Shown here in pieces: positions 37,177 to 64,000 of a stretch of 64,000 nucleotides of DNA; positions within the stretch are counted from its first letter, which is position 1, and each line of letters begins with the position of its first letter. Made by a program: the position numbers and the translations under genes. Below the pieces are notes generated by a model. It was not told the DNA's origin. It did no database searches and saw only the letters and a list, made by a program, of their open reading frames with translations. Location of the stretch: NCBI RefSeq assembly GCF_007860185.1, contig NZ_SJPY01000002.1:651775-715774 (forward strand), given 5' to 3'. This DNA comes from Novipirellula aureliae (GTDB taxonomy: Bacteria > Planctomycetota > Planctomycetia > Pirellulales > Pirellulaceae).

Positions 37177-37385
37177 TTTCTATTTCTCTTTAGGTGTTCC
37201 CAGCTCATGCCAATCCAACGATCAGCATACACACACACAGACGCCAAACCACACTTGGTTCTGCATGCTAGAAATACTTTCCACTATCGCTCTTGGTCGA
37301 ACACCTCCCCGACCGCCTCGGGAAGTTGCATTACACATCCAATGATGGGGCAAACCTAAAGTTTATCTTCCCCCCGTTATCGCTA

Positions 37386-44269: not shown

Positions 44270-46441
44270 TTATCGGGCTTTTCTTTGTTTCGTCCGATCA
44301 TAGGTTTCCGCCACCGCGATATCGCGTGCGACCTCTTCGGACAAACCCTGCCAGGAGAAAATCCGGTTTCTCATCTGAATCGTCGTCACCGGCTGGTGAT
44401 GAGGCTTGGTCACCGCGACAAGATTCTGCCAATGCTTTTGCGCACGTTTCAAGGTAGCGACAGCCTCCGCTTGTTTCTCTTTATCTCCGTCTGCGCGGTA
44501 CTGTTCCAACGCCACGGCAGCTCGTAGTTTTTCAGCAAAATACAGACACTGATGGCTCCAGGCCTGCACATCCATGATTTCGCATTCCAGCGTCGGATGA
44601 TCTCCGGTAACCGTTTGAACGATGCCAAGCGCCTTTTCGCCGATCCCCTGTAGCTCATCAGCCAGCTCCAGCGGCGTAATCAGCTCTTCGTCGTGCGTCC
44701 CATTACGCTCCGCCTGCACATAGTCAAGCACACTAATATATGCGGGATCGAGAACGTCATAATCCATCAGTTCTTCCAAAGATAGAAACGGTGATTTTTT
44801 ATCATCGTATCCACACTTTTGGTACCGAGCGGTCACCAGCATGCCCTCGGCATACATCGTGAAATCCCAGGAGTTATCGACATAGGATGCGAAACGCAGC
44901 GGCATTTTACTGGCCAGTTTAAACGCCTCCACCATCTTCTCACCGACACCCTTGCCATAACGTTGATCAAACTCAAGCGCAAACACTTGATCGGTCGTCT
45001 TCGGATCGTACAGCAAACGCCCCCACTGCTTGTAGAACAGCCACTGACGTTCCCAGGCATAATCCCAGGTCACGTGCTCATGATCCGGTACATGCGTGTA
45101 TTCCTTTCCAGGGAAGTAACACTCCGAACCAACATAATACCCGCCCACATACGGTTGTCCGTTCAGCTCAATGTGCTTGCGGATAAAGTCCGGCTCGCCC
45201 CAGCGCAGAATATAAAAAGATTCATTCCGCATCATCCATGTCACGGCATAGTTCTCTGGCAGCGGATTCCGATAAGCATCGGATATCGATCCGCCATGTA
45301 CCTGAATCAGCTTCGGCGTCGAATGCGCATGCGACCAGTTAAACTTGATCTCCACCCAGACCGGGCCGTCGACATCTAGCGAATCGATCGCATTGCGTGT
45401 CATCTCCTCGGTCGCACGATCCGTTGAGCCGCCGCTGTTCGCCTGCGCGGTGAACGGAACACGATGAATAAACTTAATCTTGCGGTCGGCCGCTTTCATG
45501 CCTTCAACGAACGTGCGGAAAATCCACTTTTCGCGATCCTCCGCCTCCATGCCATTCATAGCCTCGCCCAGACTGATCCCCAACCCCGCAAGGTTCGGAT
45601 ACTCATTGATCACCTGCGTCACACACTCCTTGGTATAACGCTCCATTTCGGGACTGTTCTTGGCCTGAGTGTAGTGAGCCCCGGTATCCTTATTCATTTC
45701 GGGATCATAATTATCCACATATCCTTCGGAACCAAAAATATTCCAATTGACCAGGTAAACGTCGATTCCGCGCAGTTTTGCCTCTTTAAACAATGTACGC
45801 CAAAAGGTCTGCCACTCCGCCAGCTCCGCATCATCAAACGGGCAGGCCTTAGGAAAATTCGTGGGCCGAATCATATACGGGAAAGGATGCAGCGACCAAA
45901 GAGTCAATGCGTTAAAGCGATTTTCCGCCATCATGTCGAGAAAGCTTCGCCAAAATTCCATGTCTCGCAACGTCTCATGATGCAAAGCCTGTAGCTCCTC
46001 ACTTTGACGATACGATGACCATGGCAGGTTGAACTTGATGGCGCGAAACGGAAACCGCGGATTGACCGTTTTCTCCGGTACTGACTCTAACCCGTGAATC
46101 CCAATCATATCGGCCAGTTCAAGAAGCCCATACATCGCGCCGATCTCATCGATCGCGCGAACCTCAACTCCATCAGCTGTTTTCGCTAACGAAAATCCCG
46201 CTTCGACCAGCGTCTTGTCCGCCCCGTTCGGCAGCAACGTTACGCGAATCGCCTCATCGCCTTCCGCCGCCGTAGGGTCTACAAAACCACCGGTGTCTCC
46301 CTTTTCCTTGAGCGCGCTGAGCACCCGCTCACCGCCAAACGATTGAGCGTAAGATTCCGTATTCAATACAACATCAACTGACTCACCATAACCGCAGGCA
46401 CAAACCGCCAAGGCGACCACAAATCCAAACAGTCTCATCAT
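44270..46441 (-). CDS. secreted GH67-N/GH20-fold putative glycosidase, paralogue A
   Basis: A 723-residue exported protein. The signal is at about 1-19. Residues 20-125 form an alpha/beta domain like the N-terminal domain of GH67 alpha-glucuronidases and of hexosaminidases (IDEIGAMYGLLELADMI). The barrel starts with FPFRAIKFNLPW and includes FLDMMAENRFNALTLWSLHPFPYM, KLRGIDVYLVNWNIF, LAGLGISLGEAMNGM (E293 is a candidate catalytic residue shared by all three paralogues), KFIHRVPFTA and VWVEIKFNWSHAHST. A helical C-terminal region of about 200 residues ends the protein. I know no characterised relative. The start (ATGATG) directly follows the stop of the relic at 46442. Confidence 0.6.
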   Translation of the reverse strand: MMRLFGFVVALAVCACGYGESVDVVLNTESYAQSFGGERVLSALKEKGDTGGFVDPTAAEGDEAIRVTLLPNGADKTLVEAGFSLAKTADGVEVRAIDEIGAMYGLLELADMIGIHGLESVPEKTVNPRFPFRAIKFNLPWSSYRQSEELQALHHETLRDMEFWRSFLDMMAENRFNALTLWSLHPFPYMIRPTNFPKACPFDDAELAEWQTFWRTLFKEAKLRGIDVYLVNWNIFGSEGYVDNYDPEMNKDTGAHYTQAKNSPEMERYTKECVTQVINEYPNLAGLGISLGEAMNGMEAEDREKWIFRTFVEGMKAADRKIKFIHRVPFTAQANSGGSTDRATEEMTRNAIDSLDVDGPVWVEIKFNWSHAHSTPKLIQVHGGSISDAYRNPLPENYAVTWMMRNESFYILRWGEPDFIRKHIELNGQPYVGGYYVGSECYFPGKEYTHVPDHEHVTWDYAWERQWLFYKQWGRLLYDPKTTDQVFALEFDQRYGKGVGEKMVEAFKLASKMPLRFASYVDNSWDFTMYAEGMLVTARYQKCGYDDKKSPFLSLEELMDYDVLDPAYISVLDYVQAERNGTHDEELITPLELADELQGIGEKALGIVQTVTGDHPTLECEIMDVQAWSHQCLYFAEKLRAAVALEQYRADGDKEKQAEAVATLKRAQKHWQNLVAVTKPHHQPVTTIQMRNRIFSWQGLSEEVARDIAVAETYDRTKQRKAR

Positions 46442-46606
46442 TTATTTCCCTCGGATCTCTTTACGAATCTCTTCCATCACCGCCATGCATTTCGGATTAA
46501 AAATAGGATGCTCATCCGTGACCTCCGCCCTCTTCTCCGCAGCGTTGACGGATGAAGCCATCGTCAAGAGACACGCCGCCGACAACAGCCAGCACAAGGT
46601 ATTCAT
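46442..46606 (-). pseudogene. internally deleted GH29-like gene: signal peptide joined to C-terminal tail
   Basis: A 54-codon frame. A normal signal peptide (MNTLCWLLSAACLLTMASS, cut near NAA) is joined after three residues to VTDEHPIFNPKCMAVMEEIRK. That tail is nearly identical to the last 25 residues of the 512-residue GH29-like protein ending at 21993 (VTDDHPVFNPECIAVMEEVRK). Everything between, about 450 residues, is missing in frame. It keeps its stop codon and abuts the next gene (TAA then ATG), so it could still be translated as a small exported peptide. The relic reading is favoured. Confidence 0.75.
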
Positions 46607-46665
46607 CTTATCTCGGTAACTCATATACTCCCCAGAGGAACTGGCTTGATTATCGATTTGACCGT

Positions 46666-47910
46666 CTATCTTCTTTTTTCAGGCGAGGTCTGCCCATAGG
46701 CCTGCCAAGCCTTTGCAAACGTGCTATCCGGCAACCAATTCGCCGTTGACTTGTCACCCTCATACTGATCGTATGAGGCCACATTCAGCGATTGCCGGCC
46801 GCCTTTTTCAAAATTGTAGACGTCGCCAAGCCATCCTTTTTCAATGTCAACCGGTTTGAGCGAGCCGTCGTCATTGAGGCGAACCCGCATGGATGCTTTC
46901 AGGAAATCGATGACGAAAGCCCAGGTCGATTCGGCATCCGCAGGGCCATGCCCCACACCCCCTTCCATCATCATGCACATCGCCGCATTCCGTTCGCTAC
47001 GCAGCGTCGCAACCGTCTGGTCCTGGCGAGCATTGAGAAGGTATTTGTCTGCGGTTCCGCACATTACCAAAGCTGGAACCTGCTCCGTGTTCGGAAACTG
47101 CAAGTAGCTCGAAAAGCCAGGGTGAAAAGCGACCCATGCAATGGTTCTTTCCGGCCAGTCACGCGGAAAACTGGCGGAGAATGCGGTGCCGTTCGAGTGC
47201 CCGAACGTCATGATCGGTGCGGTCGCTAGCTCGGGGTGACCACACATCTCCGCCAACTTCTTAATGTGCTCCTCCAGCACCGTCACCGATGCAACCCCGC
47301 GTTTTACCGGATCGCCGTCCATGGCAACCAGAGCTAGCTGCTCCTCTTCAGCGAATTTCTGAAGAATTGGCGTCGTAATATTTCCAATGCCGTGCATCGA
47401 GATATAAAAAGCCGCCTTCACCGTTTTGACGGACTCCGGAATGTACACATAAAAATGGGCATCCGTTCCGGTTCGTTTCCCAACAATCGAATTCTTAGGG
47501 TCCATCTGAACGACAAAGCCGGTCAGAGAGCTGACCATCAACTGCGGCTTCAACTTCACCACAATCGGCATGGGCTGTGAAAAATAGTCCATGGAGTCAA
47601 TTTTTATCTGACGGGTACTATGCCCATTGCGTTCCACTTTTAAGGTAGCAATCCCACCACCGCCGCGTTCTTCGAGCGGTTCCTCAAGAGTGAATTCCAG
47701 GGCAAACTCGCCGTTGCCATCCGTGCGAGCTACCGCATTGACCGGCAACAGCGTTACCGTGGCGTCATTCAGCCAGTTGTCATCGGTATCCATCACCTTG
47801 CCTTTAAGAAATACCGTTTCGCCTTGAGCAAAGGAAATGCCGCCGAGCAGCGTTCCAAGTATCAGCAAACGGGTTAACCAAATATTCTTCACAACGTTCA
47901 TCTTACTCAT
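46666..47910 (-). CDS. secreted alpha/beta-hydrolase esterase with carboxypeptidase-regulatory-like domain
   Basis: A 414-residue exported protein. The signal is at about 8-29. Residues 30-120 form a beta-sandwich of the carboxypeptidase regulatory type (VFLKGKVMDTDDNWLNDATVTLL, RTDGNGEFALEF). The alpha/beta-hydrolase domain is at about 140-390: nucleophile Ser in FGHSNGTAF, Asp in MCGTADKYLL, His in GGVGHGPA. It probably removes acyl groups (acetyl or hydroxycinnamoyl) from the polysaccharide; the substrate is inferred from context. Starts at ATG 47910 and 47901 are both possible; the frame further upstream is Lys/Glu-rich. It precedes the relic at 46442 by 59 bases. Confidence 0.75.
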   Translation of the reverse strand: MSKMNVVKNIWLTRLLILGTLLGGISFAQGETVFLKGKVMDTDDNWLNDATVTLLPVNAVARTDGNGEFALEFTLEEPLEERGGGGIATLKVERNGHSTRQIKIDSMDYFSQPMPIVVKLKPQLMVSSLTGFVVQMDPKNSIVGKRTGTDAHFYVYIPESVKTVKAAFYISMHGIGNITTPILQKFAEEEQLALVAMDGDPVKRGVASVTVLEEHIKKLAEMCGHPELATAPIMTFGHSNGTAFSASFPRDWPERTIAWVAFHPGFSSYLQFPNTEQVPALVMCGTADKYLLNARQDQTVATLRSERNAAMCMMMEGGVGHGPADAESTWAFVIDFLKASMRVRLNDDGSLKPVDIEKGWLGDVYNFEKGGRQSLNVASYDQYEGDKSTANWLPDSTFAKAWQAYGQTSPEKRR

Positions 47911-48127
47911 CTCGTTCTTCTTTTTTTTCCCACCCTCGTCCCCTGTCCAGCCGTACTTATTGCACGGCTCTTCGGTGGTACGGGATGTCGTTTCCATAAC
48001 GGCGGTAGCGGTGAGCCGATGGCTGTAAGGCCACGGGCAGTAACGCGAACGCCCGAATGCTTAGGGACGTTCGATTGATAACTTTATCACTTGCAAATGT
48101 TTGCGTTTCCCAAGTTTCGTAGTGGCG

Positions 48128-49525
48128 TTAGTAGTTCAACGTTCCTCTTTTCGGTGCCCCCTTTTGCCCCTCCCACCATTCGTTGGGACCTTCCGTTTCA
48201 ATCTGCTTCCAAAGCTTGAAGAGGATCTGTTTCATCTCTTCTGTTTTTTCCGGCATCTTGGCGGCGAGATCATTTTCTTCTTTCCAGTCTTTTTGGATTT
48301 CATAGAGCTGGAATTCGGTCATCGTATCATTGCCGACAATCTTCCAATCACCGATGCGCATGGCAACCCGGTCGTTCGGATGTGAAACGTGAGTACGCCA
48401 AAACAATGGAATCCTGCGTTCAACCGGTTTGCCTTCAAACACTGGCAACAGACTCACGCTGTCGATCGTGCGATCCGTCGGCAGCGGTACGCCGGCCATA
48501 TCGAGTGCCGTTGCAAAAATATCGGTTCCAATGATGGGAATATCACTCGTACTTCCAGCCGCAATGTGTCCTGGCCAACGAGCCAGTCCCGGCACTCGGA
48601 TACCACCCTCATGGTCGCTGCGTTTGCCGCCACGAAGTCCGCCAGAGGTGCCGCCATATTGCGACACGGGCCCGTTGTCGGACGAAAAGTAAACAAGCGT
48701 ATTGTTCGTCGCGCCGATTTCATCCAAGGCATCGAGCACGATGCCCAGCCCATGATCCATTTGGCTGATGTTCCCCATGTATTTGCTGTTTTCATGCCCA
48801 TTGTAGAGCTGCATGAAACGAGAGTCGGTGGCAATCGGCATATGCGGTTCATGGAACCAAACGGAAAGCACAAACGGTTTTTCGGGATTGCGTTTCTCCT
48901 TCATCCAACTTGCAGCCTCCGCTGCAACAAGCGGTGCGGAGTATCCCTTCAGCTCGCCAACCGGTTCGCCGTTGCGAAAAAAATTATCCGGATTCTCATG
49001 GCTGGGGCTTGCGTTGTTCTGAGTATACATCCAGTAGTCATAGCCATGATCGCCAGGCTGAGGGTACTCGGGATTATTAAACTGTGGCTTCGCCAGCAAA
49101 TGCCATTTCCCCACATGACAGGTCTCATACCCAACACCCTTTAACAGTTTTGGATAGGTGATTTCGCTCGCCCGCAGATGCGCCTCATGATTGCCTGACA
49201 AATGTCGCCACACACCATTGCGATAGGGCGTTCGCCCGGTAAGAATCGCCGAGCGTGAAGGAGAACAAACGCCGCAGGCAGAATAACACTGCGTGAACTT
49301 CATGCCCTCCTCCGCCAGCCGATCCATGTTTGGGGTCTGAATCAACTCATGGCCGTAGGTTCCTGAATCCCCCCACCCCATGTCATCGGCGAGCAAGACC
49401 ACAATATTGGGCTTGTTTGCCGAACTGCCGCCAGCAGGCGAAGCCTGGTCCGTTTGCGCAGATGCGGCAACACTAAGCAGCCATATCGATACGATGGTCG
49501 CCATTCTCATCATTGTCTGTTTCAT
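48128..49525 (-). CDS. secreted S1 sulfatase (CSPSR type)
   Basis: A 465-residue exported sulfatase. The signal peptide is at about 1-23, followed by a Ser/Gly/Ala-rich linker. Motifs: LLADDMGWGDSG, VCSPSR with C87 as the predicted formylglycine, GKWHL and SSDNGPVSQYGG. The insertion HLSGNHEAHLRASE after the FGly motif and WMYTQNNASPSHENP differ from the CTPTR sulfatases here, so it should belong to another S1 subfamily and attack a different sulfate position. It follows the GH29 gene at 49545 by 19 bases, so they are likely co-transcribed. A start five codons upstream (49540) is also possible. Confidence 0.9.
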   Translation of the reverse strand: MKQTMMRMATIVSIWLLSVAASAQTDQASPAGGSSANKPNIVVLLADDMGWGDSGTYGHELIQTPNMDRLAEEGMKFTQCYSACGVCSPSRSAILTGRTPYRNGVWRHLSGNHEAHLRASEITYPKLLKGVGYETCHVGKWHLLAKPQFNNPEYPQPGDHGYDYWMYTQNNASPSHENPDNFFRNGEPVGELKGYSAPLVAAEAASWMKEKRNPEKPFVLSVWFHEPHMPIATDSRFMQLYNGHENSKYMGNISQMDHGLGIVLDALDEIGATNNTLVYFSSDNGPVSQYGGTSGGLRGGKRSDHEGGIRVPGLARWPGHIAAGSTSDIPIIGTDIFATALDMAGVPLPTDRTIDSVSLLPVFEGKPVERRIPLFWRTHVSHPNDRVAMRIGDWKIVGNDTMTEFQLYEIQKDWKEENDLAAKMPEKTEEMKQILFKLWKQIETEGPNEWWEGQKGAPKRGTLNY

Positions 49526-49544
49526 AAAACCGTTTCTCATTCGA

Positions 49545-51041
49545 CTAATTCTTCAATGTAATACGAAATCCATTCACATACTGACCCGGCAACGTTTTCG
49601 GCAACGGGATGTTTAGACCATCGCTCGAGCGTTTCCATTCAATGTTCTCATCACTGCCCATCAGCTCGATGGCGGCAATATCTTGATCGAGTAATCCACC
49701 GGTCGCCAACGTTTTGATGAGAATATCATTTGTCGGCGGAGCTAACAGGAAGGCATAAAGAACTCCGTCTTTCTGAGTAAAACGAATGTCCTGTGGGGAG
49801 AAGTTCTTATGGTTTTCCCCCTGACGGCCATCCTTAATTTCCAATGGCCCCTCGCCATAGGTTTTCCATGGACGGGAGCCATAAATACCCTCTCCGTTCA
49901 TCTTTACAAAATCGCCGAAAGCGGTCAGGTAAGCGGCCTGATTTTCGGGCAGCGTGCCGTCTCCCCGCAAAGCGACGTTGAGCATCACGACACCGTTCTT
50001 ACTGATCGCATCCACGGCGTTTCCGACCATCACTGGAATAGCCATTCGATTCACAGCCCCTTTCCGATAGAACCAACTACCGGAAAGATCCGTTGCCCAC
50101 ATCCAGGGCTGTGGCTTGATTTCTCCTGCGCCGCCGCGCTCTACATTCGGGGTATAGGCGCGTTTGTCCTTTCCGCCTTTGGCAGAGAAAACGACCGTCT
50201 GTTTACCATCATTCTCTTTCCGATCGCGGTTCAAATAAGACGAAAACAGTTTAAGGCCTAAAGACTTTCCGGTCTTTTCGTTGGGATAGGGACAGTCATT
50301 GTTAAACCAATCGGGGTCATACTTGTCCATAATTTCCCAACAACGGTCATACCAGTGTTGATTCCAACTATCGGAGTGCTTATAGCCGGAGGGATCATAT
50401 TCCAGATTAAATAGCTTCGCTTCGAGCGTACCGGGGGTCTGATATTGACGAGCCGACGCAAAGAAGCTCGGCGACCAATACAGATGGGTAGAGATACCAA
50501 ACTTGAGCCCATGTTTCTCCGCCGCCGCCTTCCATTCCTTGAGCGTATCGCGTTTGGGTCCCCTATCCACCGAGTTCCAAGGGTGGAACGAATCGTACAT
50601 ATCGAAGTTGTCGTGATGACAAGCTACCGGCATAACAAATCGAGCACCGCAGTCTTTAAAGAATTGAACAAGCCCATCCGGATCGAAGTTTTCCGCCTTG
50701 AACAAAGGAACCAGATCTTCATAGCCGAACTCCTCGACAGGTCCATATCGCTTTTCATGGAATGCTCTCAGATTTTCATTCATGTTTCGCTGTAAACCTG
50801 ATTGTCCATTTGATGGGCCGTACATTCGCCGGCCGTAGTGCGAGCCATCGCCGGGTCGATTTTCGTCGCTTGCCGAGGGAATCCCCCAATGCATCCAAAC
50901 ACCAAACTTGCCATCCAAAAACCATTCCGGCACATCATAATTTGCCGCCATCGATTCCCAGGTGGGTTCAATCTCGGCAGCGTGGACAGAGAGAGGAAGG
51001 CAACTGAGACATAACGCCATCCAACGAATTGTTAATTTCAT
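49545..51041 (-). CDS. secreted GH29 alpha-L-fucosidase
   Basis: A 498-residue exported fucosidase. The signal peptide is at about 1-22. The barrel has the long N-terminal loop KFGVWMHWGIPSASDENRPGDG, then ARFVMPVACHHDNFDMYDS, KFGISTHLYWSPSFF and DPDWFNND. The usual W-F-D is replaced by FNND, but D249 lines up with the nucleophile of enzymes having W-N-D, so activity is likely retained. The C-terminal beta-domain ends in an ELMGSDENIEWKRSSDG element typical of GH29. ATG 51041 has GGAGAAGA upstream; the open frame before it is basic. It is clearly different from the other GH29 copies, so not a recent duplicate. Confidence 0.85.
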   Translation of the reverse strand: MKLTIRWMALCLSCLPLSVHAAEIEPTWESMAANYDVPEWFLDGKFGVWMHWGIPSASDENRPGDGSHYGRRMYGPSNGQSGLQRNMNENLRAFHEKRYGPVEEFGYEDLVPLFKAENFDPDGLVQFFKDCGARFVMPVACHHDNFDMYDSFHPWNSVDRGPKRDTLKEWKAAAEKHGLKFGISTHLYWSPSFFASARQYQTPGTLEAKLFNLEYDPSGYKHSDSWNQHWYDRCWEIMDKYDPDWFNNDCPYPNEKTGKSLGLKLFSSYLNRDRKENDGKQTVVFSAKGGKDKRAYTPNVERGGAGEIKPQPWMWATDLSGSWFYRKGAVNRMAIPVMVGNAVDAISKNGVVMLNVALRGDGTLPENQAAYLTAFGDFVKMNGEGIYGSRPWKTYGEGPLEIKDGRQGENHKNFSPQDIRFTQKDGVLYAFLLAPPTNDILIKTLATGGLLDQDIAAIELMGSDENIEWKRSSDGLNIPLPKTLPGQYVNGFRITLKN

Positions 51042-51158
51042 TGGTCTTCTCCGCCGGTGGTCTGTTTGAAAAAATTTCAGTGAAAAAGCTATTGCGGTGG
51101 CTAGTCTCACGGTGACTCTACTTAAGGTGTGAACTCGTATAGTAAACTTCCGATAAGA

Positions 51159-53348
51159 TTACCGAGGTCCTGCTTCATTGAGAGGGAAAGGTTTGAATCC
51201 AGTTTTCAATGCCGGGCTATCATCTTGCAGACGAAAGTCTCCGTTCGCCGGATCTGTAAAACCGGGATCGGCAATGACCGAATTACGATCGTTGCCCAGA
51301 GCTCGCCACTTCTTCCAACTCGTCACCGGCTCGTTGGGCTCGTAAAGGCGACTGAGACAACGGTCTTGTGCCCCCAGAACCTCTCCGGCTATCGACCAGA
51401 CAAGATTGCTGTCGGCCTTGAAGCCCCCAGGGGTATTGACACGATAAGCGTATCCCCCGGCGTAGATTGGCGTCCCGTCACTGAGCAAGATATTGTTGGT
51501 CAGGATGAAGCCGGTGTGCGGCTGAGCTTTGCCCATCATGACCACGCTGGTATCGGCAAAGGCGAAGATATTGTTACGGACGATGTTGTTCTTGCCGTAG
51601 TGCTGGTTGAAGCAGGCATGGCGACAGCGATAGGCCAGATTGTTCTCGATGAGAATATTGCGGGAGCCCTCATCACAATAGATTGCCCAACCGCCATATT
51701 TCCCGGCCCAGATATCGTGAAAGCGGTTATGACGGATCACCGTTCCTGTCTGGTCGCCAAGGGTGTAGATGCCCCCCAGGTCACTAAGCACGGCCCCGTC
51801 CCCGTTGGTCCAGCGCCCGATGTGGTGGATGTGGTTGTGCTCGAAGCGGTTGCCCGTAGCCAACCCGCGACCGTAGCCCCAGGTCCAACCGCTGGAAATG
51901 CCCGAGTAATAGAAGTTGTAGATCTCGTTGTGATGCACGTTGTTGTCCGGACTCTGTCCAATCCAGATCCCCACGGCACAGTGATAGTAGCGGCCACCGT
52001 CATAGATGCGGCAGTCGGCGATTTCATTGTGACTGCAGGCGTCCAATGGGTTTTCAAGTACCGGTGGAAAATCGGTCCGGTCGGGATTCTCTTTGTCCGA
52101 AGGCGGACGGATCTTAGGACCGATCAAGAAACCGCCGGCACCCAAGTCATGAATGTCACAATGCAGGACTCGGTTCTGTTCACAACCCGGCCCGATCTCG
52201 AGAGCGTAGTTACCGATGGCCGTGATCTCACAATCTTCAAAGCTACAGTTGCGCGTATCCAAAAGACGCACAGCACCATCCATTTGGATATCAGCTTGGC
52301 TATAGCCAGAAGGCCCCTTATCGCGAGGCAGCACCCACGTCGTATGGCTAAAGGTCAGACCGCGAAAGGCAAGATGCTCGACCCATTTCTCCTGATCCGC
52401 ATCGCCTTCAAGTTGGAGCACCGTCACCAGGTTGGGGATCATGGCCACGATTTCGGACTCGTCGGGTAAGGGATAGTAGTAGAGCTTGTCGGCTTGGCGG
52501 TCGAGATACCACTCGCCCGGCTGATCCAGCATGGCTCGCCCGCCCTCAAGGTAGTAATGGTCCTCGACTTCCAGAGCTCGACCACTCTGCTTCGCACATA
52601 CGATCTTTTGGTTCTCGCGATCCACACGGTCCAGCGGCATGTGGTACTCCAGCCACTTGTTGAAGATCACCGCAACCCCGTCCTCAACCCCATCAAAATA
52701 GTGGGCGTCTGTCGAGGCAAAACGAAAGTCATAGGTCTTAGCCCGCTGCTCGGCCGCCGAATTCTTTTCGACCAAGGGAACATCCGGAATCTGAAGATAG
52801 CCTTGATTGGGCGTGCGCGACTGGGTGGCCCGGTGACCATTGACCCACATCTGCTCAAAAGGTTGGTAACCGCCAGGCAACTGCGTTAGATCCGCAACCA
52901 CCACCGCGTATCCGTTGAGCTCCGCCGTTTGCCAATGCTCGACCTTACGCCCGCCGCTGATAACCACCGCCTGATCGTCCTGGTCCTGATCACCCCAGGA
53001 ACGATAAATCACCGGCGCCGTTTGCGTGCCGCTATCGCGAGCATCCAGCACGAAGGGCTTTTCAAGGAGATATTCGCCGGGAAGAACGCAAATCTCGATA
53101 GCTTGCTGGCGACGTTGTCCTTGGGGCAGATCACGGATTGCGCTGCGAACAGCCTCCAGACTTCGGAAGGGGCCGTCCGCCCCGTGGGATGATGGATGCT
53201 CCAATGTTCCTGACCAAGCGTCGTTCCCCTCGAGCGACACAAAGAACCGCAGAGGTTGAGACGATTCCGCAGCGCATGGAACCATACCAACAAGAAAAGT
53301 AGCAATCGCAAAACAAACAACCTGTTTGAATGAGCCTTCGTCTTTCAT
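51159..53348 (-). CDS. secreted right-handed beta-helix glycosidase-like protein (GH141-like)
   Basis: A 729-residue exported protein. The signal is at about 1-28. FFVSLEGNDAWSGT and HGADGPFRSLEAVRSAIRDL form the N-terminal element. Beta-helix coils run from about 320 to 620: EHLAFRGLTFSHT, NCSFEDCEITAIG, NRVLHCDIHDLG, NEIADCRIYDGG, NNVHHNEIYNFYYSGI, NHIHHIGR and NILIENNLAYRC. It closes with DPGFTDPANGDFRL. It shares the same plan as the proteins at 18056 and 26526, so GH141-type fucosidase or related activity is plausible. AAGG lies about eight bases before ATG 53348. Flanked by a GH29 gene and two GH67-N-like genes. Confidence 0.75.
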   Translation of the reverse strand: MKDEGSFKQVVCFAIATFLVGMVPCAAESSQPLRFFVSLEGNDAWSGTLEHPSSHGADGPFRSLEAVRSAIRDLPQGQRRQQAIEICVLPGEYLLEKPFVLDARDSGTQTAPVIYRSWGDQDQDDQAVVISGGRKVEHWQTAELNGYAVVVADLTQLPGGYQPFEQMWVNGHRATQSRTPNQGYLQIPDVPLVEKNSAAEQRAKTYDFRFASTDAHYFDGVEDGVAVIFNKWLEYHMPLDRVDRENQKIVCAKQSGRALEVEDHYYLEGGRAMLDQPGEWYLDRQADKLYYYPLPDESEIVAMIPNLVTVLQLEGDADQEKWVEHLAFRGLTFSHTTWVLPRDKGPSGYSQADIQMDGAVRLLDTRNCSFEDCEITAIGNYALEIGPGCEQNRVLHCDIHDLGAGGFLIGPKIRPPSDKENPDRTDFPPVLENPLDACSHNEIADCRIYDGGRYYHCAVGIWIGQSPDNNVHHNEIYNFYYSGISSGWTWGYGRGLATGNRFEHNHIHHIGRWTNGDGAVLSDLGGIYTLGDQTGTVIRHNRFHDIWAGKYGGWAIYCDEGSRNILIENNLAYRCRHACFNQHYGKNNIVRNNIFAFADTSVVMMGKAQPHTGFILTNNILLSDGTPIYAGGYAYRVNTPGGFKADSNLVWSIAGEVLGAQDRCLSRLYEPNEPVTSWKKWRALGNDRNSVIADPGFTDPANGDFRLQDDSPALKTGFKPFPLNEAGPR

Positions 53349-53416
53349 AATTCAACCCTTATGCTTTATTTGATGTTTTCGTTCAATCCGCCGCCAATCT
53401 CTTTCAACTTTCACGG

Positions 53417-55585
53417 CTAGCCCTCATCCCCAGCCAAGACGGAGTACTCCCTTGAAACAGCGGCGTCGTGTACATGCCAGTCTTCAAAATTTCGAGTTCT
53501 CAGCATGTCCGCGCCAATGAACATCCCGTCCATGATCCGCGTGTAGTTCTTCCAATGCCCCTCGGCTTTGCCCAGGGCGGTTCTCGCGTCCTCGTTTCGG
53601 TCCGCCGCCTTGGCCGTGGCGGCTCTAATTTTCTCAGCGTAATAGAGACTCAGATAAGCCTGGGCATGGATGCTCTTGATGTTGACCTCCAGATCGGGAT
53701 TCCCAGCGGACGAGATGGTCGCCAGCTTCTTGATCGCGGATTCGGCCGCCAACTGGACCTTGTCCGCGACATCGTCGGAACTGAGGCCGTCTGGGCAATC
53801 TCCAGCGGCGCTCTCCTCGATACTGCAAAGCTCTGAACCGATAGACGGTTTGGCTTTGATAAAATCCTCAATCTTGAGAAAGCCCTTATTGCTCTGGCAC
53901 AACTCGGGCCACCAATTGAAGTCAAAACAAAGGGTTCCCTGGATGACCTCTGCGGCCAAAGGCAAGCCGCGCGACGCATCGCTCCAGGCATCAAAAAGAG
54001 TCGCTGCAGAAACGTCCGGATATCGGTAAGCCAATTCGTTGAGGAAGACTTGATCGGATGTTTCGGGATTGTAAGACAAACGCCCCCAGAGCATCTGCGT
54101 GTACCACAACCTCTTGATGTCCAGGATATTCTTGTGGACATCGGCCTTGCTGTAGAAATCTCGCGTGGCCGTCCAGCCATCCGACCCGTAGAAGAACCCC
54201 TGGATGTATTTGTCCTTGTCCGGAAAGGCATTTATGTAATCACGCGCGAACTGGGGATCGCCCCAATGCAAATAGTAAAAATCGTCTTGCCGAACTTCCA
54301 GCCACGTCTTCTTTTGGGTTCTGGCCAAATCCGCTGGAACATCGCCGTCCTTGGTATAGATCAATCGCGGCGCCGGCGCGGAATACATATGGGCCGCCGA
54401 ATACTTGTACGACATGTCCAAACGCACATTGGGCAGAGCCAGCATCGGTTCGAAGTGGCTCATTATTTGCGAGATTTCGGCGTAGTGCCACCTGTGAATG
54501 AACGTGATGTCTCGGTCAGGGTGGTCCTTGGCGTAGTCCATGATCCCCTGGCCGTACGTGTCCCACATCCACTTTCCCTCGGCCTCCGCCGACAGGCGAT
54601 TCATGTTTTCTCCAGCAGTGACGCCCACCCCGTCCAAGTCGGGATAGGTCTCCAGCATCATGCGGACAGCCTTGCGAAAGTACTCCTTGGTGGCTTGGTT
54701 TTTCGGATCATTGTTGATCCCGTTTTTACCCTCGGCCCCATAGGTGTAGATGTTCCACGTAATGAAATAGATTTTGAAGCCCCGACTCTTTCCATAAGCC
54801 ATGACCTTTTTCCAGAAGGCGACTTTCTCGGTGGGACTCATCTTTTTGGCGTATCCGTCAAAACCCTGGACGTCCTCGACAGCCTCTTCCATATCCAATA
54901 GTGCTGGGAAGGGATGGCTATTCCAGATCGACAGCACATTGAAGCGAGCACGGGCCATTTCATCGAACCATTCCTCCCAGTAGGCCATGTCCCAAACGGC
55001 GGGGATCGCTTCCTTCGCGGCGTCGCCTCCAAAGGCCTGCGATAGGGACTTTTCGCCGTAACCGACATAGGTCGGGACACGCGCATCAAGAGGCAGGTTG
55101 TATTTCACCCCGCGATTCTTGATATACGGGGCTTCCTGGCTGTTGTAGGTCTTCGACATATCGTGGAAGCGGATATTCTCGGCTAACTGCAAACCACCGT
55201 ACATCAGACCGTCCGCGTCGCCGCCGAGCACCCAGTAACTCTTCGGCCCCTTCGTAGCGGTTCTCAACGCATAGGCCTGTTCGCCAAGCCCGGATATCGT
55301 CGAACTGCCCTGAAGGCTTAGCACCTCACACGCGATGCCATCCGACGCCAGGCATAATACAATCTTTTTCTCGGCATAATCAACGCTCAACTCCGACAGC
55401 GGGTTTAGTTCCGCCGTATGCCCCTTTCCTTGCAAGGCCGTCTGGATCTCACTGGCGGCGAACTCGGATTGAGGGACCTCGCTGTCAAAAAAAATCCCTA
55501 CCACGTCGCCGGCGACCGGCGATGTGAGCAGCAACACGAACATGATGGGATACAGTACTTGATATCCCAGGGTTATTTTTTTCAT
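53417..55585 (-). CDS. secreted GH67-N/GH20-fold putative glycosidase, paralogue B
   Basis: A 722-residue exported protein, the most divergent of the three paralogues. The signal is at about 1-26. The N-terminal alpha/beta domain ends with DADGLMYGGLQLAENI. The barrel shows KNRGVKYNLPLDARVP in place of the FPFRAIKFNLPW of the others, then WEEWFDEMARARFNVLSIWNSHPF, KSRGFKIYFITWNIY, DGVGVTAGENMNRL (conserved Glu) and ITFIHRWHYAEI. The helical C-terminal region is kept. AGGAGATG precedes ATG 55585. It is encoded 21 bases after paralogue C, so the two are co-transcribed and may act on different linkages of one substrate. Confidence 0.6.
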   Translation of the reverse strand: MKKITLGYQVLYPIMFVLLLTSPVAGDVVGIFFDSEVPQSEFAASEIQTALQGKGHTAELNPLSELSVDYAEKKIVLCLASDGIACEVLSLQGSSTISGLGEQAYALRTATKGPKSYWVLGGDADGLMYGGLQLAENIRFHDMSKTYNSQEAPYIKNRGVKYNLPLDARVPTYVGYGEKSLSQAFGGDAAKEAIPAVWDMAYWEEWFDEMARARFNVLSIWNSHPFPALLDMEEAVEDVQGFDGYAKKMSPTEKVAFWKKVMAYGKSRGFKIYFITWNIYTYGAEGKNGINNDPKNQATKEYFRKAVRMMLETYPDLDGVGVTAGENMNRLSAEAEGKWMWDTYGQGIMDYAKDHPDRDITFIHRWHYAEISQIMSHFEPMLALPNVRLDMSYKYSAAHMYSAPAPRLIYTKDGDVPADLARTQKKTWLEVRQDDFYYLHWGDPQFARDYINAFPDKDKYIQGFFYGSDGWTATRDFYSKADVHKNILDIKRLWYTQMLWGRLSYNPETSDQVFLNELAYRYPDVSAATLFDAWSDASRGLPLAAEVIQGTLCFDFNWWPELCQSNKGFLKIEDFIKAKPSIGSELCSIEESAAGDCPDGLSSDDVADKVQLAAESAIKKLATISSAGNPDLEVNIKSIHAQAYLSLYYAEKIRAATAKAADRNEDARTALGKAEGHWKNYTRIMDGMFIGADMLRTRNFEDWHVHDAAVSREYSVLAGDEG

Positions 55586-55606
55586 TGGTGCATCTCCTAA
55601 AGAATT

Positions 55607-57709
55607 CTAGTTTCGTTCCGCGATTCGGATGTCCTGCTCGACCTGTGGTAATTGCTTGCGCCATGAGTACTCCTGATCGAACTGATAGGGCATCACGGGG
55701 ACATTGTACTTCTCGACGTGCTCAACCAATTCAAGCCAACACGCTTTGGCCTTGGTTAAATGCGCAATGGCGGCCTGTTGATCGGCTACGTTCTTGTCTT
55801 TGCGGTAGCGGGCTAACGCCACAGCGCCTCGGAGTTTTTCGGCGAAGTACCGACCATGCCAAGTCCAACAGATGATGTCATTCAATTCGATCTGCAAGGT
55901 CGGTGATTCGGATTGACCCGCGTTCTTGGCCGCCAAACGTAGGGCTTCCTGACAGTCGGCGTCGAGTTGATTGGCCAAGGTCAAGGGATCGATTCGTGTG
56001 GGATCCCGTATCCCCTGATTCACGGTTTCGTCGATGCTGAGGTAGAGGCTCTCGTCTAGGACGGGTTGTTTGATCAAGTCGTTGACCGTGATGAGCTTGC
56101 CGCCGTTCTTAGCGAAGCCCTCGCTGTAGAGCGTTGCATCCCAGGTGGCTCGGTAGAAGGAGCCCAAACGGTTGGCGCCGTTCGACGCCAGGATCCAAGC
56201 CCGCAGTAGTTCGGCACCGTCGACGCCAGGGAATTTATCTTGCAAGGCGGTGGCGAAGGCGTCGTCGGGAGTTTGCGGATTGAAGAGTAAATTTCCCCAC
56301 ACCTTATAGAAGAGCCATTGCCGCTCGAACGCATAGTCCCAGTGTCGGTGTTCGTCGCGCGTGATGTAATCCTTGGCCGGGATATAGCATTCCGACCCGA
56401 TGAAGCAGCCGTCCGTATAGGCTTGGCTATTCAAGCGAATGAACTCTCGGATGAAATCGGGCTGGGCCCAACGCAGGACGAAAAAATCCTCGTTACGCAT
56501 GGTCCAGATCGCCTTGTACTTGTCCGAGGGCGGCGTCCAATAGGTATCGGTCAACATCCCGCCGTGAACAATCGATAGTCGGGGTGAGGTATGCCCGTGG
56601 GACCAGTTAAACTTGAATTCAATCGAGACAGGATCGTCCATGCCCATCGTCTCAATGGCTTCACGCGTGATCTGTTCGGTGGTCACGCTGACCGATCCGC
56701 CCGACTTCTTGTTCGCCGAGAGCGGCGCTCGGTATATCAGACGAGCCTTGCGGTCGGCGTTCTTAAGTCCCGCGATGAGGGTGCGATCTACCCAGTCACG
56801 TCGCTCCTCGGAAACCATACCTCCCATCCGTTCGCCAAGAGTCAGACCGATCCCGGTGAGATTAGGGTATTCGTTTAGCGTTTGGGTAACGATCTCTCGC
56901 GTGTATTGCTCAATCGCTGGCGAGGTAACGCCGTCTCCAAGGAACCGAGTGCCTTCGAACGACCCGCCCTCGCCATAATGTTGAGAAAACTCCTCTGGCA
57001 AAAAGATATTCCAATTGACCACATACGTGTCAATGCCACGCTGCTTGGCCATCTTGAACAAGCCATGCCAAAAGGCCTGCCACTCGGCCATTTCCTTCTC
57101 GGTAAACGGAGAGGACTTGGGGAAGTTGGTAGGACGAACCATGTACATATAGGGATGCATGTTCCAGAGCGATAGCACATTGAACTTGTTGTCGACCATC
57201 ATGTCTAGGAAGGCTTCCCAGAAGGCAAGATCACGACAGGTCTCCATATGCAGGGACAAGTGCTCACCGTCACGATAGGAGTACCACGGCAGATTGAACT
57301 TGATGGCTCGGAACGGATAGTGCGCCTCGATGGCTCTCTCTTGAAGCGTCTCGAGCGTCCGCCCTTGCCTTAACTGGGAGTCGATATCCAGGATGCCATA
57401 CATGACGCCCCGTTGGTTCCGGGCGGCAATGGAGTAGCCCTTGCCCTGCCTGCAAAGGGTGTAACCATCGTCAGCCTCCTCGCCGGGATCTTGCTCAATG
57501 CGCAGGTCAAGGTCCGCTTCCGATTCGCTTGAGACGCTAAGACTTACGCCTTGAGCCGCCAGGGTTTTTTCGAGTCGCCCGAGTGCAAACTCGATCTCGG
57601 GGGAGGTCTTGGGGGCCGATACGGTCAGCGTGCTTGCCTCGCAAAAGCCGGCACACATCAGAACCGCCAAAACAACAAAACTAGTTACATCTCGTGGTCG
57701 CAATTTCAT
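55607..57709 (-). CDS. secreted GH67-N/GH20-fold putative glycosidase, paralogue C
   Basis: A 700-residue exported protein. The signal is at about 1-25. The N-terminal alpha/beta domain (NQRGVMYGILDIDSQLR) precedes a barrel with YPFRAIKFNLPWYSYRDGE, FLDMMVDNKFNVLSLWNMHPY, KQRGIDTYVVNWNIF, LTGIGLTLGERMGGM (conserved Glu) and ARLIYRAPLSAN. It is close to paralogue A over the whole length (SIEFKFNWSHGHTSP, YTDGCFIGSECYIPAKDY, YAFERQWLFYKVWG). GGAG lies seven bases before ATG 57709. It is the first of the GH67-N-like pair, with the truncated GHL15-like relic 75 bases upstream. Confidence 0.62.
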   Translation of the reverse strand: MKLRPRDVTSFVVLAVLMCAGFCEASTLTVSAPKTSPEIEFALGRLEKTLAAQGVSLSVSSESEADLDLRIEQDPGEEADDGYTLCRQGKGYSIAARNQRGVMYGILDIDSQLRQGRTLETLQERAIEAHYPFRAIKFNLPWYSYRDGEHLSLHMETCRDLAFWEAFLDMMVDNKFNVLSLWNMHPYMYMVRPTNFPKSSPFTEKEMAEWQAFWHGLFKMAKQRGIDTYVVNWNIFLPEEFSQHYGEGGSFEGTRFLGDGVTSPAIEQYTREIVTQTLNEYPNLTGIGLTLGERMGGMVSEERRDWVDRTLIAGLKNADRKARLIYRAPLSANKKSGGSVSVTTEQITREAIETMGMDDPVSIEFKFNWSHGHTSPRLSIVHGGMLTDTYWTPPSDKYKAIWTMRNEDFFVLRWAQPDFIREFIRLNSQAYTDGCFIGSECYIPAKDYITRDEHRHWDYAFERQWLFYKVWGNLLFNPQTPDDAFATALQDKFPGVDGAELLRAWILASNGANRLGSFYRATWDATLYSEGFAKNGGKLITVNDLIKQPVLDESLYLSIDETVNQGIRDPTRIDPLTLANQLDADCQEALRLAAKNAGQSESPTLQIELNDIICWTWHGRYFAEKLRGAVALARYRKDKNVADQQAAIAHLTKAKACWLELVEHVEKYNVPVMPYQFDQEYSWRKQLPQVEQDIRIAERN

Positions 57710-57784: not shown

Positions 57785-58195
57785 TTAGCCCAGTCTAATT
57801 GTTCGGATGAACTTGGCATAGCTTCCGCCGGGTTTTCCCCGGCCGAAGCAACAACCGTAGTGCACAATCACGTTGCGGTAATACAAAATCTTCGTGTCTG
57901 GATTGACCGCCTTAACGGCTCGGGCTGCCTTCAGCGTTCCGGCATCCACCGCGCCGAAGTCCGCATATCCCGTGGCCTTTTCAAAGGTAACGAGTGGGAA
58001 GGTCGCAAGATGTTCAATCTCTTCATCGGTGAACGCGGTATCCTTGCGGATATGCACGTATAGGGGAACGGTATCCCAGGAGAATGCCGGCATCCGATCC
58101 GGATTCGTGTTAGGTGAAGACGTTTCAGCTGCGTGAATCGCGCTGAGCGATCCAAACAGTATGGCAACAAGGGTCACTGCGCATCCATATTTCAT
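57785..58195 (-). pseudogene. 3'-truncated GHL15-like glycoside hydrolase gene
   Basis: A 136-codon frame. The signal peptide (about 1-22) and the opening MPAFSWDTVPLYVHIRKDTAFTDEE followed by TKILYYRNVIVHYG match the first part of the intact GHL15-like proteins at 36022 and 40454 (FSWDRVPRTMLIRK; KVLYYWNSRIYFG). After about residue 113 the sequence changes to CCFGRGKPGGSYAKFIRTIRL and stops, losing some 250 residues of barrel. A small GC-rich hairpin (CCGGGGAAAACCCGG) marks the junction. The new end may come from another deleted gene. The start and ribosome binding region remain intact. Confidence 0.7.
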
Positions 58196-58314
58196 TCCGT
58201 TTTCCAGCTTGCGTATTGTTTTTCTTCATGTTGTGTTTGACGTCGCTACCTAAACACTCCACCTAGACCATTTTTTTGCCAACATTTTAGGCCACGCCCA
58301 TGTACGTGACTTTT

Positions 58315-58554
58315 GAATATGTGGCACAGGCTTCTGAATATGTGGCACAGGCTTCTGAATATGTGGCACAGGCTTCTAGCCTGTGGTCATTGGAAGCCCG
58401 CGGTTGCTGAAACACAGACGAGAAGCCCGCGGTTGCTGAAACACAGGCTAGAAGCCTGTGGTCGCTGGAACACAGGCTAGAAGCCTGTCGTTGCTGCAAC
58501 ACAGACTAGAAGCCCGCGGTTGTTGAAACACAGGCTAGAAGCCTGTGCCACTTA
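58315..58554. repeat. tandem arrays: three 21-bp units and five 29-bp palindromic units
   Basis: Three exact 21-base units (58315-58335, 58336-58356, 58357-58377) contain GTGGCACAGGCTTCT. After a transition, five 29-base units begin at 58411, 58440, 58469, 58498 and 58527. Most carry the hairpin ACAGGCTAGAAGCCTGT (7-base stem, loop AGA), with variants such as CAGACGAGAAGCCCG. The last unit runs to the stop codon of the sulfatase gene (TAA at 58552-58554, - strand). Positions 58196-58314 hold no gene; they include the upstream region of the relic at 57785. Confidence 0.88.
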
Positions 58555-59928
58555 GCGTTTTCCCGGACTTAAACAGGTTGGATCCGCCTCGGTGGGTAGA
58601 GTGGCCTTCCAGTCGAGCACCATTTTGGTCAGCCGCGACACGACTTCTGGGTACTCTTTCGACTGATCTTTAGCGATGTCTTCGGCGCGATCGGTTTTCA
58701 TATTGTGCAACTCGACACGTTTGCCGTCGAAGGTCGTCACCAGTTTCCAATCCCCCTCGCGGACGGCCAAACGCGGCCACCCATCAGGCTCGCCGCCAGC
58801 GCCCGTATGCAGCCAGAAGATCGGCCGGGTGCGGGTAATGGTCTCGCCTTTGAAGGCCGCAATCAGGTTTTCCCCGTCGCACGGTGCGTCGGCAGGGAGC
58901 GTCACGCCGGCGGCAGCGCAAAAGGTGGGCAACAAATCCACGGCGCTGAATACGGTTGTGTCATTCTTTAGTCCTACTGCCGTGTGGCCCGGCCAGCGCA
59001 CGATGAACGGTGTGCGTATGCCGCCTTCAAATAGGTTGCGTTTGCGTCCGCGCAAACCGCCGGTCTCGCCGACACTGTAGTAGCTGCCATATTTGCCGGG
59101 TGTTCCTTTGGCCGTGCTGGTGCGTTCCGGGCCGTTGTCGCTGGCGAAAACCACGATGGTATTATCCGCCACGCCCGCTTTGTCGAGAGCGGCGAGCACC
59201 TTGCCCACATTGTTGTCACCATCAGTGATGACGGCGGCATAAATCCGTTTCTGCTCATCCTCGACGTCCTTCCATTTCTCCAATGCTTCGGGTGTCGGGG
59301 TGTGAGCGGTATGGCTTTCATGAATCCACACGTCTACGAAAAACGGGCGATCCTTGTTGGCCTCGATGAACTGCGCCGCCCGGTCGGCGATGTCATGGTA
59401 TTGGATTCCCGGACCCGGCCCGTGAAAAACCGCCGATTCGTCAATGCCGTAGTCCGCCATTTCCGGTTGGCCAGGCACATTATCCTTGGCCATGTGCCAT
59501 TTACCAAAGTGGGCCGTTCGATAGCCAGCAGCCTTGAGGTAGCGGGGCGTCGTGGGCGCTCGAGGGTCCAGCCAATCCGGCTGCTCCGGTCCCGGACGGC
59601 GGGCTCCGAACACACTGTTAACACCGTAGCGGGAGGGATAGCACCCGGTCATGGCCGCGACGCGACTCGGTGAGCAGACAGGATTGAGCACGTTGAACTG
59701 CTGGAAGTCGACCCCTTCGCTGGCAAGCCGGTCAATATTAGGTGTGTGTACCCAAGTACTGCCGTGGCAGGATAGATCGCCCCACCCCCAGTCGTCGGCG
59801 TAGATAAAGACGATGTTGGGTTTGGCGGTCGGTGGTGGGGTATCCGCGGCTTGCAGCGTGGCCAGTGGCGCATGCAACAGGCCAGCAAGCAGGAGTGCCG
59901 ATTTCAGGGCGTTGATGACCGTTTTCAT
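58552..59928 (-). CDS. secreted S1 sulfatase (CSPSR type)
   Basis: A 458-residue exported sulfatase. The signal peptide is at about 1-28. Motifs: IYADDWGWGDLSCHG, VCSPSR with C85 as the formylglycine precursor, FGKWHM and SDNGPERT. VWIHESHTAHTPTPEALEKW and GGLRGRKRNLFEGGIRTPF are typical of planctomycete arylsulfatases. It is distinct in its substrate loop (FGARRPGPEQPDWLDPRAPT) from the other sulfatases here, pointing to another sulfate position. The gene follows the next sulfatase (59955) by 26 bases in transcription order, so the two are co-transcribed. The palindromic array begins right at its stop codon. Confidence 0.9.
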   Translation of the reverse strand: MKTVINALKSALLLAGLLHAPLATLQAADTPPPTAKPNIVFIYADDWGWGDLSCHGSTWVHTPNIDRLASEGVDFQQFNVLNPVCSPSRVAAMTGCYPSRYGVNSVFGARRPGPEQPDWLDPRAPTTPRYLKAAGYRTAHFGKWHMAKDNVPGQPEMADYGIDESAVFHGPGPGIQYHDIADRAAQFIEANKDRPFFVDVWIHESHTAHTPTPEALEKWKDVEDEQKRIYAAVITDGDNNVGKVLAALDKAGVADNTIVVFASDNGPERTSTAKGTPGKYGSYYSVGETGGLRGRKRNLFEGGIRTPFIVRWPGHTAVGLKNDTTVFSAVDLLPTFCAAAGVTLPADAPCDGENLIAAFKGETITRTRPIFWLHTGAGGEPDGWPRLAVREGDWKLVTTFDGKRVELHNMKTDRAEDIAKDQSKEYPEVVSRLTKMVLDWKATLPTEADPTCLSPGKR

Positions 59929-59954: not shown

Positions 59955-61421
59955 TTATTTTCGAATCTTGATTTGAGTATCGTTGGCCTGTTTCGCACCC
60001 GGGGTGCTGCGACCGTTGGCGATGATTTGCTCTAGCTCCTTGGTCAGGCGGGCAACGGTTTCAGGATGTTCGGCCTGCAGATTGTTGGATTCGGTAACAT
60101 CCTCGTTGAAGTTGTAGAGCTGGGTATCGGGCAAGCGTTTCGCCTCGGCACTGTTAGGCTTCGGGTCGCCAAAGCCACCAGAATGAGAACAGAATTCGAG
60201 TTTCCAATTCCCCGACCGAATGGCGAAGAAGCCCATGAAGGAATGATGCACCACGGACTCGCGAAGCGGGCCTTGGTCCGTACCCAACATCGCAGGCAGG
60301 ATGCTGACGCTGTCTTCCCCGGCGTTATCGGGAAGCTTGGCTCCCACGATGTCGGCACAGGTGGCGATGAAATCGGTCAGACAGATGATTTGATCGCTCC
60401 GACTGCCGGGTGCTACCTGTCCGGGCCAGCGTACGATAAACGGCACGCGATGGCCGCCGTCAAAAACATCCCCCTTCATCCCCCGAAAATCGCCGCTCGG
60501 AAAATGTCCCTTCGCCTCCAAGTCAGGATAGCGGGCGGCCGGCGAGCAACCATTATCGCTAGTCATGATGACGAGGGTGTTGTCTGCCACGCCCGCCTCG
60601 TCAATGGCCGCAAGGACCTGACCGACGGACCAGTCGGTTTGCATCACGAAGTCACCATAGTTGCCAAGACCGCTTTTGCCTTCCCATTCCTTGCTGGGAA
60701 CGATCGGCGTGTGCGGTGAGTTCAGCGGCAGATAGAGAAAAAACGGCTGATCGCTCTCCGCCTTCTCAGCAATGAACTCCACTGACTTGCGCGTCAGCAT
60801 CGGCAACACATCCACCGCTTCAAAACTCTCCACCGCCGGGCCCTTGCGTTTATAAAACGCTTTGGTCGTGTTCAGTGGTTCAGTGAAATGGTCGTTTTCA
60901 ATGAACGCATAGGGTGGCATATCTAGCGACGCGGCGATGCCAAAAAAACGATCAAACCCGCAGGAGATCGGGCCGGAGGGAATCGTGGGCGATGGCTCTC
61001 CTTTGGGGATACCTAACCCGAGATGCCATTTGCCGATGCAACCCGTGGTGTACCCGTGCTGTTTCAGCAACTCCGCCACCGTCAGCCGGTCCGCTGCAAT
61101 GAGCGGAGCGTCGAACCCGTGCAACACCCCTTTTTGCAGACGCGTGCGCCAGTTGTAGCGTCCCGTCAGGACGCCGTAGCGGGTCGGCGTGCATACGGAT
61201 GAACTGGTGTGGGCATCGGTGAAGGTCATTCCCTGAGCCGCCAGCTTGTCGAGATGAGGGGTGGCGATTTTACCACGCTCGGGATTGAGGCATTGCACAT
61301 CGCCATAACCGAGGTCATCGGCAAGGATATAGACAATGTTGGGTTTATCCGATGCGGCATGTGCCACCACGCCGACAAGGCAGAAAAGTGCCAGCAACAT
61401 TGTTTTCATTAAGGATTTCAT
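59955..61421 (-). CDS. secreted S1 sulfatase (CTPTR type)
   Basis: A 488-residue exported sulfatase, paralogue of the one at 37386 over its full length. The signal peptide is at about 1-22. Motifs: ILADDLGYGDVQC, VCTPTR with C77, GKWHLG and SDNGCSPAAR. Shared with the paralogue are NPERGKIATP, GVLTGRYNWRTRL, FFGIAASLDMPPYAFIEND, SFEAVDVLP and GNYGDFVMQTDWSVGQ. The two probably attack similar sulfate groups. It starts 10 bases after the beta-helix/PDZ gene stops, so translation is likely coupled. Its C-terminus (NANGRSTPGAKQ region) diverges from that of the paralogue. Confidence 0.9.
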   Translation of the reverse strand: MKSLMKTMLLALFCLVGVVAHAASDKPNIVYILADDLGYGDVQCLNPERGKIATPHLDKLAAQGMTFTDAHTSSSVCTPTRYGVLTGRYNWRTRLQKGVLHGFDAPLIAADRLTVAELLKQHGYTTGCIGKWHLGLGIPKGEPSPTIPSGPISCGFDRFFGIAASLDMPPYAFIENDHFTEPLNTTKAFYKRKGPAVESFEAVDVLPMLTRKSVEFIAEKAESDQPFFLYLPLNSPHTPIVPSKEWEGKSGLGNYGDFVMQTDWSVGQVLAAIDEAGVADNTLVIMTSDNGCSPAARYPDLEAKGHFPSGDFRGMKGDVFDGGHRVPFIVRWPGQVAPGSRSDQIICLTDFIATCADIVGAKLPDNAGEDSVSILPAMLGTDQGPLRESVVHHSFMGFFAIRSGNWKLEFCSHSGGFGDPKPNSAEAKRLPDTQLYNFNEDVTESNNLQAEHPETVARLTKELEQIIANGRSTPGAKQANDTQIKIRK

Positions 61422-63801: not shown

Positions 63802-63853
63802 CGTTGTATCCTTCATCGTATTTAAATTAGATATTTTCGTCGGGGTTTTGCTC

Positions 63854-64000
63854 TTACTTCTCGCCACTTTTCCAAAGCTTGATTTGATCAACATCATTTG
63901 CGGCCGCCGCACCCTCCGTACTACGTCCACGCGCGATGTCTGCCTCTAATAGAGCGAGCAAGCGTGCTGCCACTTCCGGTTGCGACGCATAGAGATTGGT
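63854..64000 (-). CDS. S1 sulfatase, C-terminal fragment cut by the window edge
   Basis: The last 48 codons and TAA stop of a gene continuing beyond the window. The sequence TNLYASQPEVAARLL through DVDQIKLWKSGEK matches the C-terminus of the sulfatase at 37386 (TNLYASQPEVVARLL; DVDRIKLWKSGPK) with few changes, and the DNA is also visibly similar. It is therefore the most 5' visible gene of the - strand block and probably another CTPTR-type sulfatase. It ends 52 bases before the start of the beta-helix/PDZ gene. Confidence 0.82.
   Translation of the reverse strand, partial: TNLYASQPEVAARLLALLEADIARGRSTEGAAAANDVDQIKLWKSGEK

Follow-up and report, generated by a model that had tools for sequence, protein, structure and literature searches.

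Three paralogous genes in the window

The stretch of Novipirellula aureliae DNA analysed here (64,000 nucleotides, the window) carries three intact open reading frames on its minus strand, which encode P0001 (44270-46441, 723 aa, a putative secreted glycosidase), P0002 (53417-55585, 722 aa) and P0003 (55607-57709, 700 aa). They lie where the first-pass annotation had placed them, and every motif it quoted is present: the barrel opens with IKFNLPW in P0001 and P0003 and with VKYNLPL in P0002, the strand motif reads VNWNIF twice and ITWNIY once, and the GE(A/N/R)M motif appears as GEAM, GENM and GERM. The homology among the three, which had also been claimed, is far above chance (phmmer, P0001 against P0003: 596 bits, 41% identity; P0001 against P0002: 165 bits, 25%; P0003 against P0002: 150 bits, 23%), and judged by sequence they are true paralogues. 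They fall in two clades, A (P0001 and P0003) and B (P0002). P0003 is directly upstream of P0002 with a gap of 21 bp, and the two form the A-B gene pair of the window. The AlphaFold models of P0001 (pLDDT 91.8, pTM 0.93) and P0002 (pLDDT 85.5) reproduce the domain plan previously read from the sequence, namely an N-terminal alpha/beta domain, a barrel and a helical C-terminal region.

A profile search located six copies of the family in the host genome, at 696-811 kb of contig C2, a span of some 115 kb; three of them are beyond the window. One of these three is part of an open reading frame (L019:6024-10898; C2:806-811 kb) that encodes 1625 residues and has a clade A module at its rear, preceded by two redoxin/thioredoxin-like domains, DUF5060 and an apiosidase-like catalytic domain.

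Relationship to GH138 and other families

All three proteins match NCBIfam NF049878, the alpha-D-galacturonidase model for GH138 (P0001: E = 7e-40, 136.9 bits; P0002: E = 1.6e-17, 62.9 bits; P0003: E = 7.7e-32, 110.3 bits). None reaches the curated cut-off of 1300, the scores being about a tenth of it or less, and true Bacteroidota GH138 enzymes score 1425-1561 bits. The same model is matched by 67 of 67 relatives. With phmmer, BPa0997 (PDB 6hze, 6hzf and 6hzg) is the sole strong match among structures, and the 67-sequence profile finds it with E = 4e-63. Profile comparison with hhalign against GH138 gives 100% and E = 5e-58 over 606 columns; the alignment stops at 707 of 891, and the fourth C-terminal domain of GH138 is missing from the window proteins (700-723 aa). 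In Foldseek searches GH138 structures occupy the top five places for both models, with TM scores of 0.71-0.75 (best: 0.75 for P0001, 0.74 for P0002), followed by GH84, GH67 and GH20 at about 0.4-0.55. The earlier view that no characterised family is close is not supported, as NF049878, hhalign and Foldseek all show a clear kinship with GH138 along the entire sequence.

The first-pass annotation did hold, correctly, that likeness to GH67 is confined to the N-terminal domain: hhalign gives a weak 92.6% over residues 23-133 only, and the GH67 N-terminal model PF03648 is matched weakly by 6 of the 67 members. We rejected GH67 as the nearest family, since the profile alignment ends after that domain. 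The GH67 core motif KNGxIDFQPRE and the Glu of TQEY are missing from the family, whose barrel has no match to the GH67 profile (both motifs are present in L115 and in L134-L144). With Pfam, the window proteins match only the GH20b N-domain (PF02838; P0003 at 28.0 bits, above the cut-off), and no Pfam model matched the barrel in the window proteins or the 67 members.

Active-site residues

Conservation was analysed in an alignment of 126 sequences, comprising 104 relatives and 22 true GH138. GH138 reportedly cleaves GalA-alpha-1,2-Rha in chain A of RG-II with a retaining mechanism; E294 is its acid/base, E361 its nucleophile, and R332 and R521 hold the galacturonate. These roles agree with the E361S in the molecule name of 6hzg and with the residue numbering of the chain. 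All codons given below are on the minus strand.

The Glu of the GE motif is placed like a catalytic acid, as had been proposed, for it aligns with E294: Glu293 of P0001 (45563-45565) is at the end of strand 4, and Glu326 of P0002 (54608-54610) and Glu293 of P0003 (56831-56833) occupy the equivalent position. It had been called invariant, which is nearly but not strictly so: 101 of the 104 relatives have Glu here and 3 have Asp. Three clade A members (L038, L070 and L073) have LADWM in place of LGExM, which puts Asp at the putative acid. The equivalent of the carboxylate-binding R332, Arg327 in P0001 (45461-45463, end of strand 5), is present in all 104 relatives.

The nucleophile position is different. 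In GH138, E361 is found four residues past an invariant Lys in strand 6 (KYNGES); in the window proteins this stretch reads KFNWSH or KYSAAH, with Ser370 of P0001 (45332-45334), Ala398 of P0002 (54392-54394) and Ser370 of P0003 (56600-56602) at this point. Glu is missing from the column in 102 of the 104 relatives, its place being taken by Ser, Ala or Gly. These 102 all have acids in two other columns, 407 and 440 in P0001 numbering, where clade A has Glu/Glu and clade B has Asp/Asp; these are the candidate base or nucleophile residues (P0001: Glu407, 45221-45223, and Glu440, 45122-45124; P0002: Asp434, 54284-54286, and Asp469, 54179-54181; P0003: Glu407, 56489-56491, and Glu440, 56390-56392). 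The true GH138 sequences have the reverse pattern, with E361 present and both acids missing in 22 of 22. In the P0001 model strand 7 spans residues 398-406 and strand 8 residues 432-438, placing 407 and 440 at the strand ends. This pair is the sole fully conserved acidic set at the barrel mouth that might stand in for E361. The carboxylates sought in the barrel are there, on strands 4, 7 and 8 as against strands 4 and 6 in GH138.

The second galacturonate-binding residue, R521, is lost; its column is mostly Phe in the relatives, and the position adjoins Asp526 of P0001 (44864-44866), which like E532 is invariant in the 102. K136, H185, N234, E293, R327, K366, R405, 407 and 440, all of them invariant or nearly so, are found in the model where the eight strands have their C-terminal ends, on the catalytic face of the barrel.

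Phylogeny and distribution

In a tree built without the trait columns, GH138 (support 100/100), clades A and B together with L122 (100/100), clade A (100/100) and clade B (88/65) are each recovered. Since each of the two clades is a single group, the difference between Glu/Glu and Asp/Asp amounts to one event. L122 (L122:1384-4266, G128:C16), from another Planctomycetota genome, is a 1493-residue open reading frame with more sequence behind the family domain, and it possesses both sets of acids, the GH138-type Glu in strand 6 (KYNGEH) as well as RNDD and GSE. It sits on a long branch, and support for its intermediate placement is weak (83/33).

L122 is one of two exceptions to the loss of Glu at the E361 position; the other, L128/L186, represents a third type, C, in which the motif reads KYNGEH or KYWAEH. 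We considered L128/L186 as a second intermediate and rejected it, the alignment of strands 7 and 8 being unsure, and claim this status for L122 alone. Type C (L186 and L192 in G275; in Spirosoma, for example, L044:7119-9947) is more distant, has IGES or HGES, KYNGEH or KYWAEH, and MEP, and adjoins clade A genes in Spirosoma. Pfam gave no match for the single member searched, and type C is probably another unnamed family. Because the strand-6 Glu is common to GH138, L122 and type C, it is probably ancestral, with a loss in clades A and B.

When GTDB species genomes were scanned, 369 matches were confirmed; the ones retained belong to Bacteroidota, Verrucomicrobiota, Planctomycetota, Acidobacteriota, Gemmatimonadota and Pseudomonadota; a scan of a viral collection with P0001 returned zero relatives. 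The host genome and that of its congener have multiple copies.

The pairing seen in the window recurs. Of 54 loci seeded with a clade A gene, 20 have a clade B gene no more than 5 kb away, in every case on the same strand, and in 13 of these 20 pairs the gap is at most 212 bp; the count takes B genes with a verified Asp/Asp motif and leaves out six type C neighbours in Spirosoma. None of the 24 loci seeded with a clade B gene has an A gene, so clade B also occurs alone. The paired genes do not group together on the B tree (10 state changes, 7 of them forced by well-supported branches), and pairing has therefore been gained or lost many times.

Locus context

The neighbours in the window comprise six GH29-type fucosidase genes, GH141-type proteins, four sulfatases, two GHL15 proteins and one GH116; the host genome as a whole has 38 GH29 matches. 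Most fucoidan loci contain GH141, a family that includes endo-fucanases (PMC12786026). Taken together with the GH29, GH141 and sulfatase surroundings, this makes a sulfated, fucose-rich glycan the likely substrate of the locus, and the host is likely a degrader of algal polysaccharides. Relatives are also found in soil and freshwater bacteria and have mixed neighbours (GH43, RGL11, Sde182, apiosidase-like), those of clade B including GH43 and RGL11. A fucan substrate can consequently be proposed for this locus at most, and the family as a whole is tied to no fucose-rich sulfated substrate.

Just upstream of the A-B gene pair there is a remnant of 136 residues (57785-58195, minus strand), whose beginning resembles that of the GHL15 proteins at 36022 and 40454 before it breaks off. 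Upstream of this remnant, 58310-58560 contains tandem copies of a unit of 21-29 bp with palindromic GGCACAGGCTTCTAGCCTGTG-like segments. The sulfatases at 37389-38894 and 59958-61421 are closely related, and a flanking stretch is common to 37364-37532 and 63832-64000 (77 and 76% over 217 and 169 nt); together these point to segmental duplication inside the locus. Elsewhere in this genome (L036:3995-6658), GH29-like and GHL15-like parts are joined in a single open reading frame of 887 residues; in the window these two families are separate genes.

Discussion

We lean towards the view that clades A and B form a sister family of GH138 in which the catalytic carboxylates have been relocated. The barrel of this family is without a Pfam model, and the family may already bear a CAZy number. 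The proposal of a new glycosidase family thus stands in part: the family is distinct from GH138 and its barrel has no Pfam model, but GH138 is close kin. Searches of the literature for GH138 in connection with a sister family, fucoidan or Planctomycetes yielded no account of the A/B family, and we know of no activity for any of its members.

Clade A and B proteins share the build of GH138 (a GH20b-like N-domain, a TIM barrel and a helical C-domain) and would act as exo-glycosidases. Glu293 (P0001 numbering) would serve as the general acid, and the pair at 407 and 440 would take over the role of the lost strand-6 nucleophile, in our view as the base or bases that activate water, resulting in inversion. 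We read the pair in this way because exchanges of Glu for Asp inside one family are uncommon for a strict nucleophile. From the sequences we think that inversion is to be preferred, retention with 407 as nucleophile being nearly as likely. The fuller account, in which the nucleophile or base of the family moved from strand 6 to strands 7 and 8 by way of an intermediate with both sets, giving rise to paired Glu/Glu and Asp/Asp subfamilies and possibly to a switch from retention to inversion, is put forward tentatively, as a scenario somewhat short of even odds. Arg327 may bind a negative group, uronate or sulfate, in subsite -1. The A and B enzymes may cut successive, different bonds of one glycan, which here could be a sulfated polysaccharide rich in fucose, for instance a fucan that bears uronic acid. 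That the paralogues have different linkage specificities, as first suggested, is a guess, which the split between Glu/Glu and Asp/Asp and the recurrent A-B pairs fit.

The best of the alternatives, though we regard it as rather unlikely, is that the proteins are retaining glycosidases derived from GH138, in which E293 is the acid/base, 407 is the nucleophile as in clan GH-A or GH89, and 440 only orients the substrate. In clan GH-A the nucleophile sits right after strand 7, and 407 directly follows strand 7 (398-406) in our model; moreover, the sister family GH138 is itself said to retain configuration. However, alternation of Glu and Asp among nucleophiles is rare inside one family, and here 407 and 440 switch jointly from one clade to the other.

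It is improbable that the proteins are simply divergent GH138 alpha-galacturonidases, using the retaining mechanism of that family on galacturonic acid. Homology and fold extend over the whole length and the equivalents of E294 and R332 are kept; nevertheless E361 is missing from 102 of 104 relatives, R521 is replaced, the last GH138 domain is absent, and scores of 63-137 bits fall far below both the cut-off of 1300 and the 1425-1561 of true Bacteroidota GH138. What was found is homology to a characterised family and not membership of it: we deny ordinary GH138 membership because a residue that defines the family, the nucleophile, was tested and is missing, and the cut-off, R521 and the domain count rule it out as well.

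We consider it equally improbable that the strand-7/8 acids bind a metal ion (for example, calcium) that holds the substrate or activates water, with E293 as the acid. The pairing of the acids by type, Glu/Glu or Asp/Asp, and the neighbouring, near-invariant D408 would suit such a site, but P0001 has Ser at 408, the invariant Arg405 two residues from 407 does not favour a cation, and no metal-dependent homologue is among the top fold matches from Foldseek. Least probable of all are catalytically dead paralogues kept as sugar-binding proteins: the GH138 nucleophile has gone, yet there are 369 GTDB matches from several phyla, and the aligned members have an invariant pocket with new invariant acids, where dead copies would drift.

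With no Pfam model for the barrel and an NCBIfam match far below the cut-off, mis-annotation is to be expected; pipelines will either miss the family or call its members galacturonidases, which the active site contradicts. The A/B family probably cleaves a different sugar bond from GH138 and by a different route. If the carboxylates moved as the columns suggest, GH138, L122-like proteins, type C and the A/B family would be a natural series in the rebuilding of an active site. The A-B gene pairs offer a concrete hypothesis for missing steps in the breakdown of fucose-rich sulfated glycans.

Among known systems, the GH84 and GH20 beta-hexosaminidases resemble the window proteins in their GH20b-type N-domain and TIM barrel, but the window proteins have no match to the catalytic domains of these families, and we recognised no Asp-Glu or Asp-Asp pair of the N-acetyl-assisted kind. 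The GH67 alpha-glucuronidases show weak similarity in the N-terminal domain and likewise have a barrel in which a Glu is the acid (TM about 0.5 in Foldseek); their bases, however, are at other positions than the acids of the window proteins. GH138 (BT0997; BPa0997), the alpha-D-galacturonidase of RG-II, is the closest, with homology over the whole length, the same fold, and E294, R332 and K357 in common. The window proteins differ from it in lacking the nucleophile E361, R521 and the fourth C-terminal domain, whereas their acids on strands 7 and 8 and the strand-1 motif KFNLP are new.
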